From: Nitrospinaceae bacterium
GTDB lineage: Bacteria; Nitrospinota; Nitrospinia; Nitrospinales; Nitrospinaceae
Length of the DNA: 34,405 bases
Reading direction: 5' to 3'
Assembly: GCA_029261395.1 (NCBI GenBank)
Contig: JAJDBJ010000071.1
Span: forward strand, 1-34,405
Position 1 is the stretch's first letter. Every line of letters begins with the position of its first letter. The notes beneath the pieces are model-generated. The model did no database searches and was not told the DNA's origin. It was given only the letters and a program-made list of their open reading frames with translations. The translations under genes were made by a program, and so were the position numbers. Below, one piece after another: positions 3,210 through 33,932 of this stretch.

Positions 3210-4409
3210 ATGTTTAATTTTAGAGATATAACAATAGGGAAAAAAGTAGGTTTGGGTTTTGGTGTCATCACCTTAATTTTAATGGGAGTGGTTTTGCTCA
3301 CCATTCAGCAGGTGAGAACCATGGAGAAAATCACTAAGAGGGTTGTCGACGTTCGAACCCCCACGGCTCACGCCAGTCTTATGATGTTAAATGGTATCAA
3401 CCATTCGCTGGCTTCTCTACGCGGATGGATTCTTCTAGGTGATCCAAAATTCATGGCGGAACGATCCATTGCGTGGGAACAACAAATTATTCCGTCCTTG
3501 AAGTTGGTGCTTGGGCTTGCTCCTAACTGGACAGATTCAGAAAATAAAACTCGTTTAAAATCTATCGAAGAAGAAACCAATAAACTAAAAGCGGTCCAAC
3601 AGAAAATTGAAGACATCGCACAAACCCCGGAAAATTCTCCTGCACAGAAGATTTTATTCAATCAGGCGGAACCTTTGGAAAAATCCATTGTGGCTACCGT
3701 CTCCGAAATGATCAAGCTGGGTGTGAATGGCAACATGACCCTCAAAAATAAACGACTGATAGAAATTCTCGCGAATATAGAAACCACAATCAGCCTGGCG
3801 TTGGAAAGAGCCGATGAGTTCTTGTTATCTGGTAGAGAGGAGTTTAAAAAAGAATCCTTGGAAAACTGGAAAAAAAATGCTGAGAATATGAAAGCATTGA
3901 AGAAAAATGAAAACAACTTAAGCAAAGCACAATTGAAGTATTTTGAATCCCTGCAAAGGGAGCTTAATCAGTTCGGCCCTTTACTGGAAGAAATTATTCG
4001 AATTCGGTCGGGAGAAGAATGGAACCATGCCAATCATTTGTTGAAAATTGAAGCCGCTCCCGTAGCATTTCGAATTAAAGAACTCTTGAATGAAATGACT
4101 ACAATTCAGGAACAATTACTGGAAAATGATGTGGAGGAAATTTCCAGCAAAACTCATTTTTTAATAGTCCTTTTGGTGGCATTGTTTGTTTCGGCGGCAC
4201 TGATCAGCGGCATATTGTCCGCAAACATCTCTCATTCGATCAGCGATCCCCTCCTGGAAATTTGTAAGTTGGCAGATGAGCTTGCGCATGGAAATTATAA
4301 CGAAAAACGCTTGCCCGTTACTTCTGGAAATGAATTGGGCACCCTGAGCCAAAGCTTCAACCAACTTTTGGACCGACTGCAGAAAGAAAAACCAGAAAAG
4401 AAAGAGTGA
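3210..4409 (+). CDS. Membrane receptor with periplasmic helical sensor and HAMP domain, no output domain
   Basis: This 399-residue protein has the front half of a methyl-accepting chemotaxis protein. A first transmembrane helix lies at about 14-31, a long helical periplasmic domain at about 32-312 (four-helix-bundle type by composition), a second transmembrane helix at about 316-338, and a HAMP domain at about 340-392 containing a P-x-x-x-I/L start and an ELG-x-L-x-x-x-F-N motif. The protein stops right after HAMP with a short charged tail, and no methyl-accepting, kinase or cyclase domain follows. The next gene is convergent, so the missing domain is not downstream in another frame. The start has a strong AGGGGG ribosome site. 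It may be a truncated chemoreceptor or a stand-alone sensor that acts through a partner. Its position between dabA and a SulP gene suggests, but does not prove, a link to anion sensing. Confidence 0.8.
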   Translation: MFNFRDITIGKKVGLGFGVITLILMGVVLLTIQQVRTMEKITKRVVDVRTPTAHASLMMLNGINHSLASLRGWILLGDPKFMAERSIAWEQQIIPSLKLVLGLAPNWTDSENKTRLKSIEEETNKLKAVQQKIEDIAQTPENSPAQKILFNQAEPLEKSIVATVSEMIKLGVNGNMTLKNKRLIEILANIETTISLALERADEFLLSGREEFKKESLENWKKNAENMKALKKNENNLSKAQLKYFESLQRELNQFGPLLEEIIRIRSGEEWNHANHLLKIEAAPVAFRIKELLNEMTTIQEQLLENDVEEISSKTHFLIVLLVALFVSAALISGILSANISHSISDPLLEICKLADELAHGNYNEKRLPVTSGNELGTLSQSFNQLLDRLQKEKPEKKE

Positions 4410-6316: not shown

Positions 6317-8059
6317 TTATAAACGATACCTCGGTGTGAGTCTTTTGCTTTCTCCTTTACCCAGATCGTCGAAAAATCGATGCATGTCAGAGAGGTCAGA
6401 ATCGCTCAATTCCTGATTCAACCAGTCGATGCAATCTTTGAAGGTTTTGAACAGGTATCTCTCAGGGATCAAGCCCGGAATAAGATTGATACGTCTTAAC
6501 ATACGCACGTGCTGAGCTTTTAGGCCAGTCATCACAACGGCGATACCTCTTTTTTCCAGATCCATAACAACCTCTTCCAGAGCATACAGGCCGGTCTGGT
6601 CGATATAAGGAACTCGCTTCATGCGGAAAATGACTACGAGAATATCGGGCAAGGTTTTGGTCATTTCCTGAAAGGCTGGAGCGAAGCCGAAAAACAGGGG
6701 ACCGTCCAGGTGTTTAACAAAAATCTTGTTAGTAATGCTGGCAGGAATGTTTTCATCATTCCAGGGTACTTCCTTCAAATAATCTCGCAGGGGAGAAATA
6801 GTAACCCGTCTTCCTCCCTGATCGCTCATTTGTTTCATGAACAGGATGGAGGCCAGAATCATACCGGCCGCAACCGCCTGAATCAAATCGACAAATACGG
6901 TAAGGGCTAAAACAATGAGCATTACCACCGCATCGGCCCGGGGAACGTGAGGGATATGGCGGAATCCCTTGTAATCGATAATCCCTATACCGACGGTAAT
7001 CAGGATGCCAGCGAGTACAGCAAGCGGAATTTGTGCCGCATACACACCAGCCCCCAGTAGGACGAACAGAAGCAGACCGCCATGGACGATTCCGGACAAC
7101 TGGGTTTTGCCGCCCGCGTTGACATTGACCAGAGTCCGCATTGTCGCTCCGGCTCCCGGCAGGCCGCCGATGGCTCCCGCGACCATATTGCCGATTCCCT
7201 GGCCAATCAATTCTTTATTGCTGTCGTGTTTGGTTTTGGTGACGTTGTCGGCAATGACGGAGGTGAGCAGGGAGTCAATGGCACCCAGCAGGGCCAGTGT
7301 CAGGGCCAGCTCGATGATGAGTGTCAGGCTCAGTCCGGATAAGGAAAATTGGCTAATCTGCAACTCCGGGATACCGTTGGGGATTTCCCCAATCAAAGGG
7401 ACGTCGAGCTCTGCCCAGTTGGCGATGATGGTGACTGCCAATAAAGCGACCAGAGAACTTGGGACGGCTTTGGTGAATTTAGGGAAAATATAAATGACGG
7501 CAATGGTGGCGCCGGCCACCAGTACCGCTTCAATATTAATGTTCTGCAGGCCTGTCGGTAATTGTTTGAAAACTTCGACGATTGATTTTGGAGAAGCCAG
7601 CCCCATCAATGGAAATATTTGAAAAACGATGATGATCACTCCGATGCCGGACATGAAACCGGAAACGACGGGGTAGGGGATATATTTGATGTAGGTGCCC
7701 AGCTTGAGCAGGCCGAACAGGACCAACATGACACCGGCGATAAAGAAAATCGTGATAACCGTCCCGTAGCCGTTTTCCAGGCTACCGGAACTGTCAATGA
7801 CATCTTTAACCACCAGGATAGAAACGACAGTCATGGGTCCGGTCGGACCACTGATCTGGGAGGGTGTGCCGCCGAATGCCGCCGCAAACACTCCCACCGC
7901 AATCGCTCCATACAGTCCGGCGATGGCACCCATTCCGGATTGCACCCCGAATGCCAAAGCCAAGGGCAAGGCGACAATGCCAGCGGTAATGCCGCCAAAC
8001 AAATCTCCCCGGAGATCGGAAGGATCATATTTAAATCGCTTGAACAGGTTTTTCAGCAT
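6317..8059 (-). CDS. SulP-family anion transporter with C-terminal STAS domain
   Basis: The 580-residue product is a full-length SulP carrier. It has the GIVALPLALAFGVQSG region at about 28-43, a SGPTGPMTV loop near 70-78, about twelve membrane segments to about residue 410, then a cytoplasmic STAS domain at about 440-565 with an IDQTGLYAL motif. The family includes the cyanobacterial bicarbonate carrier BicA and sulfate carriers; sequence alone does not settle the substrate. It is only distantly like the SulP encoded at 4445-6043, so this is not a recent duplication. The alginate-export-type porin gene upstream on the same strand ends 212 bp before it, so the two may be co-transcribed. No strong ribosome site precedes the ATG at 8059. 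The unassigned bases 8060-8271 contain a short direct repeat (TTCTAGCG) and nothing else clear. Confidence 0.88.
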   Translation of the reverse strand: MLKNLFKRFKYDPSDLRGDLFGGITAGIVALPLALAFGVQSGMGAIAGLYGAIAVGVFAAAFGGTPSQISGPTGPMTVVSILVVKDVIDSSGSLENGYGTVITIFFIAGVMLVLFGLLKLGTYIKYIPYPVVSGFMSGIGVIIIVFQIFPLMGLASPKSIVEVFKQLPTGLQNINIEAVLVAGATIAVIYIFPKFTKAVPSSLVALLAVTIIANWAELDVPLIGEIPNGIPELQISQFSLSGLSLTLIIELALTLALLGAIDSLLTSVIADNVTKTKHDSNKELIGQGIGNMVAGAIGGLPGAGATMRTLVNVNAGGKTQLSGIVHGGLLLFVLLGAGVYAAQIPLAVLAGILITVGIGIIDYKGFRHIPHVPRADAVVMLIVLALTVFVDLIQAVAAGMILASILFMKQMSDQGGRRVTISPLRDYLKEVPWNDENIPASITNKIFVKHLDGPLFFGFAPAFQEMTKTLPDILVVIFRMKRVPYIDQTGLYALEEVVMDLEKRGIAVVMTGLKAQHVRMLRRINLIPGLIPERYLFKTFKDCIDWLNQELSDSDLSDMHRFFDDLGKGESKRLTPRYRL

Positions 8060-13694: not shown

Positions 13695-13925
13695 TTAGAG
13701 CCAGTCGTCCAGATCGAACTGGGCGATGCATTCGGGACTGCGCATGTCCATATATAGATCCGCCTGATCGAAGCGGGGGTTGTATTCCTTCCACCGCTCG
13801 CAGGTAAGGTCCGCCTCCTCGATTTTCTTTTGGACTTCTTCCACTTCCTCGGGTCCACCGTATTCCAGCACCACGTGAAACCCGGTAGCCGCTTTAAAAC
13901 TCAGTATATAACGCTCGTCGCTCAT
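13695..13925 (-). CDS. Small conserved-looking hypothetical protein
   Basis: This 76-residue acidic protein has no signal peptide, membrane helix or motif I recognise. It reads as a mixed alpha/beta fold with a glutamate-rich helix (PEEVEEVQKKIEEADL) in the middle. It is convergent with the CbiX-like gene, leaving about 33 bp between stops. A good ribosome site (GAGAGGAAAG) before the ATG and a continuous, codon-like composition support it as a real gene. No function is assigned. Confidence 0.6.
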   Translation of the reverse strand: MSDERYILSFKAATGFHVVLEYGGPEEVEEVQKKIEEADLTCERWKEYNPRFDQADLYMDMRSPECIAQFDLDDWL

Positions 13926-14155: not shown

Positions 14156-16105
14156 GTGGGTGAACAACAGGTTATCGATCAGAAAAAATCGGCCATCGAG
14201 CTCTGGAAACGGGATATCCCCGGCGAGTTGACCTCCGTCGATTTGTCGCCGGAACACCATTGGGTGGCGCTTGGCTTCGAGAACGGGAATGTGCACTTTT
14301 TAGATGCCGGGGGCAAACTGGTGTGGGAGGCGGATGTCGGTCAGCCGGTGAAGAAAGTAAAAATTCTGGCCCGCAAAAAAAAGGTCGCAATCCTGAACGA
14401 GTACAGCCAATTGTTTCTGGTCGATTTTACCGGCAAGCTGGCGTTGAAAAAAGGTTTCAGGCAATTCTGGTCCGGGTTGGACAGCAAATCCGGAGATGTC
14501 CTGTTGTCGGGATGGAAGAGCAAACCGCGCCGCGTTGACGTGAAGGGCAGGATGGTGCGGGAATACGCCGTCCCTCAACCGTGGATACGGGTGATACCCG
14601 TTCCCAAAAAGGAGCAGTTCTGGGTGGTGCACAACCAGGTCTGTCTGGGGTTGTATCAATCCAACGGGACAAACCTGTGGCTGGTCAACAATCCTTCGCC
14701 CCTGGAATTGTCCCGCGAAATATCTTCCGAGTTTGCCATCAGTGATACGGGGGATGTGTTCGCGATATCCTGTTTTCATAAAGGAGTCTATATCTACAAC
14801 GGGATCAACCAAACACTGAGCCAGATTGATCTGGACCGGTCAGTGGCTCATGTCGATGTCAGCGGCAACGGTAAGTTCATACTGTTGGCGGATCAATTGG
14901 GAAAAATTATGATGGCATCCAAAAGCGCCGCCGTAGTGTGGGAAAAAGAATTGTTGTCTGCGGTAACCCATTGCCGGATCGACCGTCGGGGAACACGGGT
15001 CGTCGTGGCGGAGAGGAACGGGACGCTGACCTGTTTCAAGTTTTTGGAGGAAGGGGAGCAACGCTCAAACTTTTTGGAGTTGACTCAGTTCCATGATCTT
15101 GGCGATCACAAGGAAATCTGGAGCCAGCCGGTTCATAAGGTCAGTCACTCGCCCGGACAGTTGAAAATTTCAGGGGATGGACGTTACATTCTCCTGGCTG
15201 ACGGCAAGGAATTTCAGCTTTACGACTCCACGGGAAGCCTGGTGTGGATCAAGCATTTCATGACAAGTCTTCCCAATGCTCGGATTTCCAAAAACGGCAA
15301 GAGGATTCTGCTGTTCAGTAATACCGAGCTGTTTCTACTGGATACCCAAACCCTGAAGGAAAAGCATTTGACCTTTTACAACGCCGAGTTGAGTGAAGTA
15401 GCGCTGGCGCCCTCGGGAACCGCCGTTATGGCGTTTGACAAATTCAAGACGCTGACCTGCTACTCCGGGCAAGGCAAAAAAGTCTGGAGTCGCAATCTCA
15501 AAGAAAAGATTTATAACCTTCGCGTCCACAACCTCGCGCGCCGGGCGGTGTTTCAAGCGTCACCGAAAATTTTGTTCGTGCTGGACCTGAAGAGTTTCAA
15601 GCTCAAGCGCACGGTATTGGGCGGACCCGTCACCGCCCTCGAACTCACTCAGGATGGAATTTTTACCGGCGGGAAAATGGGACGCTGTTACGGTCTCGAT
15701 TTGAACGGCAAAGAACAATGGCAACATAAAATGAAGGGGCCGATCGAAGAGATCATCACTTTGAAGAAAAAGGTGATCTTCCGAAACAAACAAGGCGACG
15801 TGTTGTTATGCAGTCATGACGGATGCAAACTGGGAGAGTCTGCCGCGCACAACTCGCATTCCCTGTTCGGTCAATATAAGAAAGATGTGCTTGAGTTGGT
15901 GCCGAGCGGCGACATGCTGTCCTGCTACAAGGTGCCGACCGGGGATCTGGCGTGGCGGTTCCCGTTGGTCGGGGGCATCCAGTCGGTCGCGGTGAGTGAA
16001 ACCGCTAACCGCATGGCGGTTCTGGATTCACAGAGCCTGCATTATCATCAATTGATTCACGAACCGCACGCGGTGGAGGATCGGTCATCATTTCTCGAAC
16101 TTTAA
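14156..16105 (+). CDS. Cytoplasmic beta-propeller protein (PQQ/WD-like repeats)
   Basis: The 649-residue product is built almost wholly of beta-propeller blades of about 40-45 residues. These repeat a pattern of strand, S.DG/GNGKFILLA-type turn, and a closing strand ending in Trp (for example GKLVWEADVG, AAVVWEKELL, GSLVWIKHF, GKKVWSRNLK, KEQWQHKMKG, GDLAWRFPLV). The count suggests about twelve to fourteen blades, that is two propellers. There is no signal peptide, unlike periplasmic PQQ-like BamB proteins, so it should be cytoplasmic, probably a protein-binding scaffold. The assigned start is GTG at 14156; an in-frame stop lies just upstream at 14147, so it cannot start earlier, but no good ribosome site is seen. 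The AAA+ gene follows after only a few bases, so the two are almost certainly one operon and probably act together. Confidence 0.75.
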   Translation: MGEQQVIDQKKSAIELWKRDIPGELTSVDLSPEHHWVALGFENGNVHFLDAGGKLVWEADVGQPVKKVKILARKKKVAILNEYSQLFLVDFTGKLALKKGFRQFWSGLDSKSGDVLLSGWKSKPRRVDVKGRMVREYAVPQPWIRVIPVPKKEQFWVVHNQVCLGLYQSNGTNLWLVNNPSPLELSREISSEFAISDTGDVFAISCFHKGVYIYNGINQTLSQIDLDRSVAHVDVSGNGKFILLADQLGKIMMASKSAAVVWEKELLSAVTHCRIDRRGTRVVVAERNGTLTCFKFLEEGEQRSNFLELTQFHDLGDHKEIWSQPVHKVSHSPGQLKISGDGRYILLADGKEFQLYDSTGSLVWIKHFMTSLPNARISKNGKRILLFSNTELFLLDTQTLKEKHLTFYNAELSEVALAPSGTAVMAFDKFKTLTCYSGQGKKVWSRNLKEKIYNLRVHNLARRAVFQASPKILFVLDLKSFKLKRTVLGGPVTALELTQDGIFTGGKMGRCYGLDLNGKEQWQHKMKGPIEEIITLKKKVIFRNKQGDVLLCSHDGCKLGESAAHNSHSLFGQYKKDVLELVPSGDMLSCYKVPTGDLAWRFPLVGGIQSVAVSETANRMAVLDSQSLHYHQLIHEPHAVEDRSSFLEL

Positions 16106-16120
16106 GGGATGGAACAACCC

Positions 16121-17602
16121 ATGAATAATTTGAAACTGCAGTTGTCACTCAGCATCCGGGCGCGTTACCCGTTGATCTATCTCGTGACCAGTGAGGAAAG
16201 CCGCGCCGAAGAGGCGTTGGAGGAAGTCGGCCGCACCACCGGCAAGGAAGTGATCACCTGGACTTGTTCCAAAGGGTTTCAGCCACCGCAGGGCGATGCC
16301 AAGAAATCGACTCATCCGGAGGAGGCGTTGAAGTATATCGATGCTTCCGACAAAAAAGCGGTGTTCGTGCTGAAGGATTTTCATCCCTACCTGGAGGAAC
16401 AAAAAATACTCCGGCTGATGCGCGATCTGGTGAGTCATCTGAAGCGGAGTTATAAAACCATCCTTTTGGTGTCGCCGGTGCTGAAAATTCCGCCGGAGTT
16501 GGAAAAGGACATCACCGTCCACGACATGCCGTTACCGGATGCCGACGAGCTGGGAGCAGTGCTGAATAATCTGTTGGAGCCGTATCGCAAATCGCAAAAG
16601 GTGAAGGTGGAGTTGACCAAAGACCTGCAGGAAAAAGTGATCCAGGCCACGCTCGGTCTCACTCGCAACGAAGCGGAGAACGTGTATGCCAAGGCATTGA
16701 TCACCGACCGTAAATTCAGCAAGGATGATTTACCACACATCATCGACGAAAAGAGACAGCTCATCCGCAAATCCGGCATCCTCGATTTCATCGGCCTGTC
16801 GACCACACTGTCGAACGTCGGTGGACTGGGCAAGCTCAAGGAATGGTTGAGGGAGCGTGGCGGGGCATTCAGCAACAAGGCGCGTGAGTATGGCCTGCCG
16901 GAACCGAAGGGACTGCTCATGCTGGGTGTGCAGGGCTGTGGCAAAAGCTTGTCCGCCAAAGCCATCGCTTCCGAATGGAACCTGCCTCTGCTTCGGCTCG
17001 ATGTCGGCCAGATTTTCGATTCGTATATCGGCAACTCAGAGGCCAATATGCGCAAGGCCATCGCGCTTGCCGAAGCGATGAGTCCCGCCGTGTTGTGGCT
17101 GGACGAAATCGAAAAAGGGTTTTCCGGACTGAAAGGTTCGGGGTCGGGCGACTCCGGCGTGACCCTGCGTGTGTTCGGGACTTTTCTGACCTGGATGCAG
17201 GAGAAGGTCAAGCCGGTGTTTGTCATCGCCACCGCGAACGATATCGAAAGCCTGCCGCCGGAGTTGTTGCGCAAGGGCCGGTTCGACGAAATCTTTTTTA
17301 TCGACCTGCCGACAGCCACCGAGCGGAAAACGATTTTCGAAATTCACTTCGGCCTGAAAAAAAGGGATCACAAAAAATATGATGTGGATCGCCTGGCGAA
17401 GGAGGCCGACCAGTTCAGCGGCGCGGAAATCGAACAGGCCATTTTGTCCGCCATGTACCGGGCGTTTGCCGAGAACCGGGAGTTCACCACGGAGGATATC
17501 CTGCTCAGCATCAAGGAAACCGTTCCTCTGGCAGTAACAGCGTCGGAAAAGATCACCCACCTCCGCCAATGGGCCCACAAGCGCGCCCGTCCTTCGTCGT
17601 AA
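16121..17602 (+). CDS. Ycf46-like AAA+ ATPase
   Basis: I choose the ATG at 16121, where AAGGG is well spaced; an ATG at 16109 sits directly against it. The 493-residue product has an N-terminal non-ATPase domain (about 1-220) and a C-terminal AAA+ module. That module has Walker A GVQGCGKS (269-276), Walker B AVLWLDE (323-329), sensor ATAN (370-373), the arginine-finger region RKGRFDE (384-390) and a helical lid. This matches the Ycf46 family, found in algal plastids, cyanobacteria and many bacteria; a cyanobacterial member has been linked to photosynthesis and CO2 utilisation. Its clients are unknown. Tight coupling to the beta-propeller gene upstream suggests that protein supplies substrate or complex recognition. 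Confidence 0.85.
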   Translation: MNNLKLQLSLSIRARYPLIYLVTSEESRAEEALEEVGRTTGKEVITWTCSKGFQPPQGDAKKSTHPEEALKYIDASDKKAVFVLKDFHPYLEEQKILRLMRDLVSHLKRSYKTILLVSPVLKIPPELEKDITVHDMPLPDADELGAVLNNLLEPYRKSQKVKVELTKDLQEKVIQATLGLTRNEAENVYAKALITDRKFSKDDLPHIIDEKRQLIRKSGILDFIGLSTTLSNVGGLGKLKEWLRERGGAFSNKAREYGLPEPKGLLMLGVQGCGKSLSAKAIASEWNLPLLRLDVGQIFDSYIGNSEANMRKAIALAEAMSPAVLWLDEIEKGFSGLKGSGSGDSGVTLRVFGTFLTWMQEKVKPVFVIATANDIESLPPELLRKGRFDEIFFIDLPTATERKTIFEIHFGLKKRDHKKYDVDRLAKEADQFSGAEIEQAILSAMYRAFAENREFTTEDILLSIKETVPLAVTASEKITHLRQWAHKRARPSS

Positions 17603-26003: not shown

Positions 26004-26077
26004 CTTTTTCTCCCCCGACACAAATAGTTTCATGATTTCTTGCAATTTACCCTGTGCGTGACCATATTAGGGGTGCT

Positions 26078-27646
26078 ATGGATCCGGAAAAGGTCAATTA
26101 CCACTATTGCGACGATCTACCGACATCTCCTCTACCCGATGTCAAAACCGTTTTAGTGTCCGGAGCCAGTGGTTACGTGGCGCGGCGCCTGGTGCCAGAG
26201 CTTTTGTTTCGAGGCTACCGGGTTCGGTGCATGCTCCGTAAAAAACTCCTGTTTGCCATTCTCTCCCACCCCAATCTTGAGTATGTGTACGCCGACGCGA
26301 TGCACCCGGATCAGTTGCGTCACGCCATGCAAGGAGTGGATGTGGCTTATTTTTTGATCCACAGCATGCGGTTGGTCAAAAGCAAATTTCGGCAGGCAGA
26401 CAAGGAAGCCGCCAGAAACTTTCGCGAGGCGGCGGAGGAGTGCGGAATTAAAAAAATAATCTACCTTGGTGGGCTGGGTGAAACCAGTAAAGTATTGTCG
26501 CGTCATTTGCAAAGTCGAATTGAGGTCGGGAGCATCTTGTCCGAAGGACCCATTCCGGTGATCCGTCTGCGGGGAGCCATTATCATTGGAACCGGAAGTA
26601 CTTCTTACGAACTCCTCAAATCAATGATCCAACACACACGCTGGATTCCTTTTTTGCCTGAGTTCAATTCCCGGTGCCAACCGATTGCCATTCGTGATGT
26701 CATCAAGTACCTCGTTGGCGTCCTGGAAACAGATGGACTGAAGACCGGTAAGTATCCCATCGGCGGCAAGGATGTGATGAGCTATGAGGAAATGGTGCAA
26801 CGGTTTGCCAAGGTATTGGGCCGGCAAGTCCGATTTTTCAATGTTTCCTGGGTTCCGATTCCGGTGACCCTGATGTGTCAGTTGTTCGCTTACTGGCTCC
26901 ATTTGTTTATTTCGGTGCCCGTGAATGTTATCTGTCTGCTCCTCGAAAGTTTGCGGACTGATGTGGTGTGTCCGGATGAAAGGATTCGGGAAACTCTGCC
27001 GTTCGAGACGGTGGGTTTTGAGACGGCGGTGCAGTGGGCGCTCCAGAAAGAAAAGAACTCGATGGTGTATTCGCATTGGAGTGATGTGCCGCCGGAAAAT
27101 ATGGCTGATCTCCTGCCGCTTTGTAAGTTTGAATCTTCAGATTTTATTGTCGAGGAACATTCGAAAGATATTCCAGCCCCGGTGGAAGTCGTGTTCCAAT
27201 CCGTTTGCCGGATTGGAGGGTCACACGGTTGGGTGCATGGCAACCTGTTGTGGAAAATCCGCGGATTCATAGACCGGGTCCTGGGCGGCGTGGGTTTGAA
27301 CCGGGGACGTCGGGATCCCAATGATCTGCGTGTCGGAGATTCGGTCGATTTCTGGCGTGTGGAAAACCTGACACCCAACCGGGAATTGCTTCTGCGGGCA
27401 GAGTTGATTTCTCCCGGATTGTCCTGGCTTCAGTTCGCGATGCAACCGATTAAAAACGGTCACACCCGCCTGACCCTCCGGGCGCACTTCATTCCCGATC
27501 CGGTGTGGGGGCATGTCTACTGGACCGTGTTGTCCAAATTCCACACCTATATTTTTAGAGGAATGTTGAATTATTTTTTCAAGCAATCGGTTCAATCGAT
27601 AAAAACGCAGGGTCCGAATCCCGGCGCGATTCCAACCAAAGCTTAG
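26078..27646 (+). CDS. NAD(P)-binding SDR protein with C-terminal DUF2867-type domain
   Basis: The 522-residue protein starts at an ATG after AGGGGTG (a GTG at 26054 has no ribosome site). Residues about 20-300 are an atypical extended SDR domain: VLVSGASGYVARRLVPEL is the Rossmann NAD(P) motif (GASGYVA), and IIYLGGLGE follows in the catalytic strand. The C-terminal part (about 345-520) is the domain that accompanies this SDR subtype (DUF2867, an SRPBCC-like fold). A hydrophobic segment near 275-300 could contact the membrane. Similar proteins are annotated only as NAD(P)H-binding or nucleoside-diphosphate-sugar epimerase-like; the substrate is unknown. Confidence 0.8.
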   Translation: MDPEKVNYHYCDDLPTSPLPDVKTVLVSGASGYVARRLVPELLFRGYRVRCMLRKKLLFAILSHPNLEYVYADAMHPDQLRHAMQGVDVAYFLIHSMRLVKSKFRQADKEAARNFREAAEECGIKKIIYLGGLGETSKVLSRHLQSRIEVGSILSEGPIPVIRLRGAIIIGTGSTSYELLKSMIQHTRWIPFLPEFNSRCQPIAIRDVIKYLVGVLETDGLKTGKYPIGGKDVMSYEEMVQRFAKVLGRQVRFFNVSWVPIPVTLMCQLFAYWLHLFISVPVNVICLLLESLRTDVVCPDERIRETLPFETVGFETAVQWALQKEKNSMVYSHWSDVPPENMADLLPLCKFESSDFIVEEHSKDIPAPVEVVFQSVCRIGGSHGWVHGNLLWKIRGFIDRVLGGVGLNRGRRDPNDLRVGDSVDFWRVENLTPNRELLLRAELISPGLSWLQFAMQPIKNGHTRLTLRAHFIPDPVWGHVYWTVLSKFHTYIFRGMLNYFFKQSVQSIKTQGPNPGAIPTKA

Positions 27647-31923: not shown

Positions 31924-32433
31924 TTAGCCGATGGCTCCCGTACAGGTTTTGGACAGAACCGCGTGTCCGGAAATCTGTTGTTCCAGAGAACCCAGCATGT
32001 CCTTCGTGGAGGTGTTCTCATCCTTCACGATGATGCCAAAGTTTTCCTGAGTAACGCTTCCGAAATCCCCATAGGAATCCCGTGAGCAACCGTACATGCT
32101 GGCCAGGCTATCGAGATTTTCGCCTTCACCGGCGGCCATTTCCTTGACCAGACTATTGTAGTTGATGCTGGCGAAGGTCTCACGCTCCTGTTGCTTGCGG
32201 GACAGTTTGTCTGCTCCACAGTTGGAGGTACCGAAAGTGATTGCGGTAGAGTGCATGGATCCTGTGGGATCCATCATTGCCGCCAGGAGCTGAGCTCCAT
32301 CCCGTTTCTTTCCATAAACGAGTGAACCGGGACCACAACCGGCATCGCCATAACCCGCGGGATGGGCGATAGCGGTTCCGGAAAAAGCGACTAAAGTGAA
32401 AAGAATCGCACTTCCAATCAGATATTTTTTCAT
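31924..32433 (-). CDS. DUF3015-family exported protein, paralog 1
   Basis: The 169-residue product begins at the ATG at 32433, which follows GAGGAGACACTCG; an earlier in-frame ATG at 32511 lacks a ribosome site and abuts the previous stop. A signal peptide ends near AIAHPAG. The mature protein has the DUF3015 pattern: a GYGDAGCGPGSLV start, then SNCG, the MAAGEGENLDSLASMYGCS segment and the closing SKTCTGAIG. Four cysteines are spaced as in the two paralogs, so two disulfides are likely. DUF3015 has no known function. It lies 78 bp behind paralog 2 with no terminator between, so they form an operon. Confidence 0.88.
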   Translation of the reverse strand: MKKYLIGSAILFTLVAFSGTAIAHPAGYGDAGCGPGSLVYGKKRDGAQLLAAMMDPTGSMHSTAITFGTSNCGADKLSRKQQERETFASINYNSLVKEMAAGEGENLDSLASMYGCSRDSYGDFGSVTQENFGIIVKDENTSTKDMLGSLEQQISGHAVLSKTCTGAIG

Positions 32434-32511
32434 CGAGTGTCTCCTCGTGATGTTCAATGTTGGTTTCATTTTATTATCGTGATTCATAAAGACGATAATG
32501 TTCGGGGTCAA

Positions 32512-33018
32512 TTAACCGATCACACCGGAGCATGACTTGGATAGAACCGAGTGGTCCGCCATTTGGCTCTCGATAGAAGTCAGCATCTGATTGGAAGTGG
32601 TGCTTTCACTTTGAACGATGTGCTGGAAATTTTCCTGAACCATGGAGTTGAATTCTCCATGAGATTCTTTCGAGCATCCGTACATACCAGCCAGAGTATT
32701 CAGGTTTTCACCTTCGCCTACGGCCATCTCCCGCACCAGACTGGAATAGTTGGATTGAGCAAACACTTCACGTTCTTTGTCCAGCTTGACCAGGCCCTGT
32801 GGATTACAATTGGAAAACCCGGTCGTAATAGCCGATAATTGGGTATACTTGAAAGTTGAATTCGTGGTCACACCCACCAATTGCATAGCACCCGGTTGGG
32901 TACCCGCTACCAGGGAACCCGGTCCACAGCCGGCTCCACCATAACCTGCGGCAAATGCAGGACCCGAAAGGGTAATGAAAGTGACAAGAACAGCACCCGC
33001 CATTAGAAGTTTTTTCAT
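32512..33018 (-). CDS. DUF3015-family exported protein, paralog 2
   Basis: The 168-residue product starts at the ATG at 33018, preceded by GAGGAGACAG. A signal peptide ends near AFAAGYG. It shares the GGAGCGPGSLV N-terminus, SNC, MAVGEGENLNTLAGMYGCS and SKSCSGVIG blocks with its neighbours, including all four cysteines. It is the first gene of a two-gene transcript with paralog 1. The DUF3015 gene upstream has its own terminator, so this gene needs a promoter in the gap 33019-33360; I could not point to a good one. Confidence 0.88.
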   Translation of the reverse strand: MKKLLMAGAVLVTFITLSGPAFAAGYGGAGCGPGSLVAGTQPGAMQLVGVTTNSTFKYTQLSAITTGFSNCNPQGLVKLDKEREVFAQSNYSSLVREMAVGEGENLNTLAGMYGCSKESHGEFNSMVQENFQHIVQSESTTSNQMLTSIESQMADHSVLSKSCSGVIG

Positions 33019-33428
33019 TGACTGTCTCCTCATGTTATTAAAGATTAAGGGTGAGTTGATATTCCGGATAACCGAAATTTAAGGAAAAAACTGATTTATG
33101 CAATAATTTTGAAAAGCCATAAACTCCTTATCTTTTAATAGATTAAAGGGCCATAGATAATTACACAAGAGATAAATGTAACTCTTTTGTGATCTGATTG
33201 TGACATTTGGAACTGATAAAAACCGAGCCCTGAAAATGAGAAGTCCTTAGGAAGGAATATTCTTATAAATGCGGGGGTTAAAGCTTCTGTGGAGCGGCAG
33301 TAGTAAAAGTCGGGGAATACCTTTTTAAGGCTGGTTTGCTGATTTGCGGGGCAAAATAAAAAGGGGTATCAATGCATCGCATAGATACATTGATACCCTT
33401 TCATTTTTTACAGCCAAGTCCTGTTGGA
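33019..33428. other. Gap between DUF3015 paralogs 2 and 3
   Basis: The right part holds the terminator of paralog 3 (33361-33401). The remainder is AT-rich 5' region for paralog 2 with no clear promoter, small gene or RNA fold. A direct repeat of TTGTGA at about 33188 is not a CRP-type inverted site. Confidence 0.55.
33354..33401 (-). terminator. Intrinsic terminator of DUF3015 paralog 3 (repeat copy 2)
   Basis: An 18-bp stem (33361-33378 with 33384-33401) closes a five-base loop; in the minus direction TTTTTATTTT follows. The stem shares TATCAATGCATC and GATACATTGA with the hairpin at 31863-31903, so the terminator seems to have been duplicated with the gene. Confidence 0.88.
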
Positions 33429-33932
33429 TTAACCAATGATTCCGGCACAGGATTTGGACAATACAGCGTGACCCGCCATCTCAGAATTCAGGCTGGAAAG
33501 CATTTCCTGAGAGTCGGTGGAGTCGCTTTTAACGATAGAAGCAAAGTTCTCTTGAACCAGAGAACCGAAATCTGCATGGGACTCTTGAGAGCAACCATAG
33601 AGGCCTGCCAGAGTGTCCAGATTTTCCCCTTCGCCCATAGCCATTTCTTTAACGAGAGTGGGATAGTTTTTCATTGCGAATTCTTCCCGCTCTTTCTCCA
33701 GTTTTACCAGGCCGGCAGGATTACAATTGGAAGTACCCGTGGTGATGCCGAAGGTCTGACTTCCAAAAGTTCCGTTGGTGGTAGCGGCCAGAACCTGAAC
33801 AGCGCCTTGCTCGCTACCAAATACGATGGCACCGAGACCACAACCAGCATCGCCATAGCCGGCGGCAAATGCCGATCCGGAAAAAGAAACTAAAGAAAGA
33901 ACCAGAGCACCTACCAGTATTAGTTTTTTCAT
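33429..33932 (-). CDS. DUF3015-family exported protein, paralog 3
   Basis: The 167-residue product has a signal peptide ending near AFAAGYG and an AGAGGAGAAC ribosome site before the ATG at 33932. Cysteines sit at 31, 70, 114 and 162, and the MAMGEGENLDTLAGLYGCS block is nearly the same as in paralog 2. It is a single-gene unit: a promoter-like pair and an upstream hairpin precede it and its own terminator follows. Three copies in a row point to repeated tandem duplication of one ancestral gene plus terminator. Confidence 0.9.
   Translation of the reverse strand: MKKLILVGALVLSLVSFSGSAFAAGYGDAGCGLGAIVFGSEQGAVQVLAATTNGTFGSQTFGITTGTSNCNPAGLVKLEKEREEFAMKNYPTLVKEMAMGEGENLDTLAGLYGCSQESHADFGSLVQENFASIVKSDSTDSQEMLSSLNSEMAGHAVLSKSCAGIIG

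Follow-up and report, generated by a model that had tools for sequence, protein, structure and literature searches.

We analysed a stretch of 34,405 nucleotides (hereafter the window), which is carried by contig C71 of a 2.94 Mb Nitrospinaceae genome, and examined two adjacent genes on its forward strand that encode a tandem beta-propeller protein and a Ycf46-type AAA+ ATPase. To our knowledge, Ycf46-type ATPases are widespread in bacteria, plasmids, phages and plastids and have no settled biochemical role. The literature mentioning Ycf46 deals mostly with organelle genomes, and no description of the propeller-ATPase pair was found in the literature searched. The features of the pair are as follows, with confidence in the AlphaFold2 model given as predicted local distance difference test (pLDDT) values.

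14156..16105, + strand: tandem beta-propeller protein, 649 amino acids, GTG start, cytoplasmic (from the list of open reading frames)
14192..15043, + strand: first seven-bladed propeller (residues 13-296; AlphaFold2 model, 28 strands, pLDDT mostly 80-94)
15062..15082, + strand: motif 1, R-S-N-F-L-E-L (residues 303-309), in a disordered linker (residues 300-320, pLDDT <50)
15113..16057, + strand: second seven-bladed propeller (residues 320-634; AlphaFold2 model)
16082..16102, + strand: motif 2, R-S-S-F-L-E-L (residues 643-649), at the extreme C-terminus in a disordered tail (pLDDT <50)
16103..16120, + strand: propeller stop codon overlapping a Shine-Dalgarno-like AAGGGA, followed by a short spacer (read directly from the sequence)
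16121..17602, + strand: Ycf46-type AAA+ ATPase, 493 amino acids (PF00004, E-value 1.4e-29)
16121..16804, + strand: N-terminal domain of the ATPase (residues 1-228), no Walker motifs, alpha/beta pattern in the model
16805..17599, + strand: AAA domain and lid (residues 229-493; PF00004 and AAA_lid_3)
16925..16948, + strand: Walker A, GVQGCGKS, invariant in orthologues apart from flanking variation
17021..17032, + strand: pore loop 1, S-[YF]-[IV]-G, aromatic in 12/12 orthologues
17093..17107, + strand: Walker B, LWLDE, invariant in 12 orthologues
17270..17287, + strand: arginine-finger region, RKGRFD (RKGRFDE), invariant in 12 orthologues

The GTG start of the propeller gene lies at the homologous place in four members of the genus. 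For the ATPase, an earlier note on this DNA had given two possible starts, 3 bp and 15 bp after the end of the propeller gene, and had preferred the second. The open reading frames and the relatives agree with this: the longer frame (16109-17602, +, 497 amino acids) was rejected and the ATG at 16121 taken as the start, because two close relatives have an in-frame stop codon between the first ATG and the position of 16121. Among relatives the spacing between both genes ranges from about 12 to more than 100 nt. The ratio of nonsynonymous to synonymous substitution rates (dN/dS) was 0.10-0.15 for the propeller and 0.05-0.06 for the ATPase, values that show purifying selection on both. No signal peptide or membrane helix was visible in either protein (the highest hydropathy over 19 residues is about 1.0 in both), in agreement with the earlier description of the propeller as lacking a signal peptide.

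A survey of gene neighbourhoods had been named beforehand as the test that could refute the proposed two-gene module. When 77 Nitrospinota genomes were searched with a propeller profile, full-length or near full-length copies were found in 13 Nitrospinales genomes and a distant copy in G063, a genome of the same class and another family; beyond these 14 there was one 35-residue fragment in an incomplete genome. The ATPase orthologue occurred in the same 13 Nitrospinales genomes and in G063 (14/77), and at that level none was present in the remaining Nitrospinota genomes, which gave just FtsH-type or other AAA matches. Of the 14 genomes that have both genes, 13 carry the propeller directly upstream of the ATPase, with one gene cut by a contig end at two of these 13 loci, and the arrangement persists even where the propellers share only about 32% identity. 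The genes around the pair differ between lineages. In the genus of the window and one other genus the neighbours are CbiX, a gene for a 76-residue protein, threonine dehydrogenase and KBL, whereas genus g2 has a reprolysin-like and a Tll0287-like gene. In family f4, NUBPL follows the pair and, in one genus, gltX precedes it, and in G038 an M48 peptidase stands beside it. The couplet is thus the sole constant, as its flanking genes differ from genus to genus on either side. Within the phylum, joint presence and adjacency are well beyond chance, and the module stood up to the survey in several neighbourhoods.

The propeller protein was modelled with AlphaFold2 using nine homologues (mean pLDDT 83, overall predicted template modelling score (pTM) 0.51). 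The earlier note had recognised the propeller fold, which the model bears out, and had counted a single propeller, where the model has two seven-bladed propellers in tandem. Confidence is low at residues 1-8, 300-320 and 637-649, and the pTM is consistent with two rigid bodies joined by a flexible linker. Pfam and NCBIfam gave only weak PQQ/BamB-like scores. BamB/PQQ-like and tandem WD40 proteins share the fold, but the protein described here is cytoplasmic, has no lipoprotein signal and scores far below the BamB cut-off (47 bits versus 285). The best Foldseek matches were generic tandem WD40 proteins with low TM-scores, which we ascribe to the flexible joint between the two propellers. No homologues were found on plasmids and viral contigs, and a scan of genome contigs with a single peptide pattern returned only Nitrospinota metagenome-assembled genomes, the named ones mostly Nitrospinaceae or Nitrospina and one record being labelled Nitrospirota. 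Within the searches made (profile, plasmids, viral contigs and one pattern scan), homologues thus occur only in Nitrospinota; as that scan used a single pattern, distant relatives outside the phylum are possible.

Both poorly modelled segments that carry a motif, the linker (EQRSNFLEL) and the C-terminus (DRSSFLEL), share the consensus R-x-x-[FYW]-L-E-[LFI]. Among 643 seven-residue stretches compared across 13 sequences, motif 1 ranked 4th and motif 2 19th in conservation. The linker copy reads FFDL in two sequences and G063 has the tail arginine at a shifted position, but FLE[IL] is present at both places even in a distant homologue with 20% identity. Conserved residues inside disordered segments usually form a binding peptide, and low pLDDT together with high conservation is the signature of short linear motifs. 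Judged from sequence and model, the two copies look like a two-point docking peptide. We also considered FLEL as a general degradation tag and discarded this idea, since the genome contains the coding pattern of the C-terminal motif plus stop codon a single time, at the propeller gene.

The ATPase aligned over residues 7-493 with Treponema and cyanobacterial plasmid and phage relatives (BLAST, 43-49% identity), and its N-terminal domain of about 230 residues, which lacks a P-loop, is collinear with theirs. Length and layout are those of the Ycf46-type ATPases (COG0464-like) of cyanobacteria, plastids, plasmids and phages, and by layout and alignment we assign the protein to this type. The AAA domain belongs to the classic clade, with the Cdc48/p97 family as nearest solved structures. 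As described before, Walker A, Walker B and the arginine-finger region are intact, and they proved invariant or nearly so in the 12 orthologues. Pore loop 1 of many plasmid and phage relatives reads SLVG or GIVG, and in one phage group K-[YWF]-VG. In the Nitrospinota proteins it is aromatic, with Y in the distant orthologue; an aromatic pore loop is typical of threading AAA+ proteins. The N-terminal domain is probably a degenerate AAA-like domain, to judge from a weak hhalign match to the AAA domain profile (probability 46%) and from the alternating helices and strands of the model. In the tree the Nitrospinota orthologues group as a single clade (support 100/98). Positions that are fixed in the clade and rare outside it number 28, and 19 of them fall in the N-terminal domain, which makes up 46% of the protein; this enrichment hints at, but does not prove, a specialised surface on that domain.

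Plasmids and phages often carry Ycf46-type ATPases. A general partnership of these ATPases with the propeller is not supported, as the propeller was absent from the 39 viral-contig loci and the plasmid loci that were opened. DUF1257 (Ycf35) and DUF2997 often adjoin the ATPase at those loci, whereas DUF1257 was found in only one of the 77 Nitrospinota genomes, which is not a pair genome; a control search did find DUF1257 in Synechococcus. Since the relatives examined lack the propeller and often have DUF1257 and DUF2997 instead, the pairing is a feature of Nitrospinota and not a property of the family.

Several of these loci showed arrangements of their own. On the Pseudanabaena galeata plasmid pPg_01 (L093, 568-8725), genes for grpE, Hsp70, DUF1257, an AAA protein, DUF2997, a Ycf46-type ATPase and a HEAT-WD40 protein stand in an operon-like row, possibly a plasmid-borne chaperone cluster. 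The HEAT-WD40 gene, 9 bp after the ATPase, was considered as an independent recurrence of the pairing and rejected: it is unrelated to the propeller and lacks the motif, and no such neighbour was seen at the other plasmid loci opened. The closest plasmid relative of the ATPase (48.7%), on Treponema succinifaciens pTRESU01 (L091), lies directly before a Phage_base_V/PAAR gene of a contractile-injection baseplate, which suggests, from gene order, a Ycf46-type ATPase within a contractile injection system. Among the 39 viral contigs with a Ycf46-type ATPase (L111-L149), the group with the K-[YWF]-VG pore loop has phrog_11021 as a neighbour. In genome G062 (L086, 1446-3940, -), a divergent Ycf46-type ATPase starts right where the gene for a secreted protein ends, and this secreted protein carries a vWA-like VIVDASGS motif.

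We propose, at slightly less than an even chance, that the propeller and the ATPase form a dedicated cytoplasmic complex in which the propeller acts as a targeting adaptor that docks on the AAA+ ring via the two FLEL peptides. In such a complex the ATPase would form a remodelling ring: its N-terminal domain would be inactive, and its C-terminal AAA domains would make up the active ring and could grip a peptide with their aromatic pore loop. The tandem propeller would be the targeting subunit; both R-x-x-F-L-E-L copies, the one in the linker and the one at the free C-terminal end, would dock it on the ATPase, whose N-terminal domain is the likeliest site. The propeller faces may capture a client, which the ring would then pull or dismantle. 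Counted in favour of a dedicated complex were the joint occurrence and adjacency of both genes amid changing neighbours, the two conserved motifs in disordered segments, the uniqueness of the C-terminal one in the genome, the absence from all pair genomes of DUF1257, the usual neighbour elsewhere, and the single ATPase clade with its specific positions concentrated in the N-terminal domain. For the adaptor role we counted two precedents. In katanin, a hexameric AAA+ subunit (p60) has its own WD40-propeller subunit (p80), which raises client binding and activity (PMC5668312), and Rix7/NVL2, a p97-like AAA+ ATPase, has Nsa1/WDR74 as a dedicated propeller partner or client (PMC6920918). Katanin p80 uses a folded C-terminal domain to dock on an MIT domain, whereas docking by short peptides is proposed here, and the likeness is one of design. 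Unlike our pair, Rix7/Nsa1 serves eukaryotic ribosome assembly, has two active AAA domains and makes contact by a propeller loop and the D1 domain.

Other observations speak against this proposal. In G063, the most distant genome, the two genes are on separate contigs: the ATPase at the end of a small one, the propeller on another, where non-coding repeats extend for at least 814 bp behind it. The couplet is thus broken there or at least not tight, and adjacency is therefore not essential. An AlphaFold2 model of a fused 1148-residue protein, the read-through translation of both genes, which are in the same frame, gave a pTM of 0.42 from 24 sequences, with both motifs below pLDDT 50 and no confident arrangement; it is a weak test, with a shallow alignment, 2 of 24 rows partly misaligned, one ATPase protomer in place of a ring and an artificial tether beside motif 2. 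While we infer that the motif copies bind the ATPase, their target could instead be some third protein, or the propeller that carries them. It is rather unlikely, though one of the two main rival readings, that both proteins are co-expressed for a shared pathway and make no contact, the FLEL motifs binding a third partner. Adjacency alone is no proof of contact, and the fused model shows none; the separation in G063 fits as well. As the pair has no other constant neighbour, however, such a partner would have to be encoded elsewhere. Somewhat less probable is that the propeller is the substrate, with the pore loops gripping the FLEL tail and pulling the propeller off a larger assembly for recycling, as has been suggested for Rix7 and the propeller Nsa1. 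Tail-threading would suit both the aromatic pore loop and the free, conserved tail at the C-terminus, and whether the propeller in Rix7/Nsa1 is substrate or adaptor is still undecided (PMC6920918). The copy of the motif in the internal linker is less easily accounted for by tail-threading, and two-point docking fits better.

We regard it as very improbable that the pair belongs to an anti-phage or conflict system resembling IetAS or the MoxR-vWA-beta-propeller ternary systems, in which a bacterial AAA+ ATPase is linked with propellers (PMC7159879). Besides this precedent, the abundance of Ycf46-type ATPases on mobile elements and a match of the AAA domain to IetA models favour such a role. That match is limited to the AAA domain, with 81 bits against a cut-off of 510, and a MoxR ternary system needs a MoxR-clade ATPase and a vWA protein, whereas the ATPase here is a classic AAA protein. 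IetA is accompanied by an adjacent S8 subtilase; no subtilase, vWA or effector gene stands next to the pair among the neighbours scanned. Moreover, the ATPase is strongly conserved (dN/dS 0.05), and its persistence across whole families along a single tree-like line of descent is unlike the rapid turnover of a defence gene. A last explanation, which follows a proposal made for Ycf46 of cyanobacteria, is that the pair regulates how inorganic carbon is taken up or used. Loss of Synechocystis Ycf46 (slr0374) lowers the activity of the carbonic anhydrase EcaB, according to the report of Jiang et al. (2015) given in PMC7496141, and the window holds these genes:

3-2588, - strand: dabA, cut by the contig end
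4445-6043, - strand, and 6317-8059, - strand: two SulP carriers, one of them closest to BicA (480 bits versus a cut-off of 880)

The dabA gene of the earlier note is thus real, if truncated, while the link to carbon uptake failed on the neighbour survey and the dabA profile. Outside the genus of the window the SulP genes part from the pair, and dabA does not accompany it in other genera either. Furthermore, dabA occurs in 36 of the 77 genomes, many of them without the pair, and is absent from several pair genomes, some more than 90% complete. We rejected this link, and a role in inorganic carbon metabolism is very improbable. A second dabA of the genome lies on contig C28.

Further genes of the window were noted in passing. 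The 76-residue protein mentioned above (13695-13925, -) has no Pfam match and is found near the pair across the Nitrospinaceae-like family f1, with 62-87% identity. A receptor-like protein with 4HB_MCP and HAMP domains (3210-4409, +) ends right after HAMP and has no output domain. An NmrA-like NAD-binding domain is fused to DUF2867 at 26054-27646 (+), and three DUF3015 genes stand in tandem at 31924-33932 (-).

Returning to the adaptor complex, its broader form is a bacterial AAA+ machine with a tandem-propeller adaptor and a duplicated docking peptide, a counterpart in design of katanin p60/p80 and with one assignable partner for a Ycf46-type ATPase. This we hold to be possible but doubtful. 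A lineage that ties a Ycf46-type ATPase to one partner offers a concrete, testable pair and, if the propeller binds the ATPase, it would show target choice in at least one branch of the Ycf46-type family.

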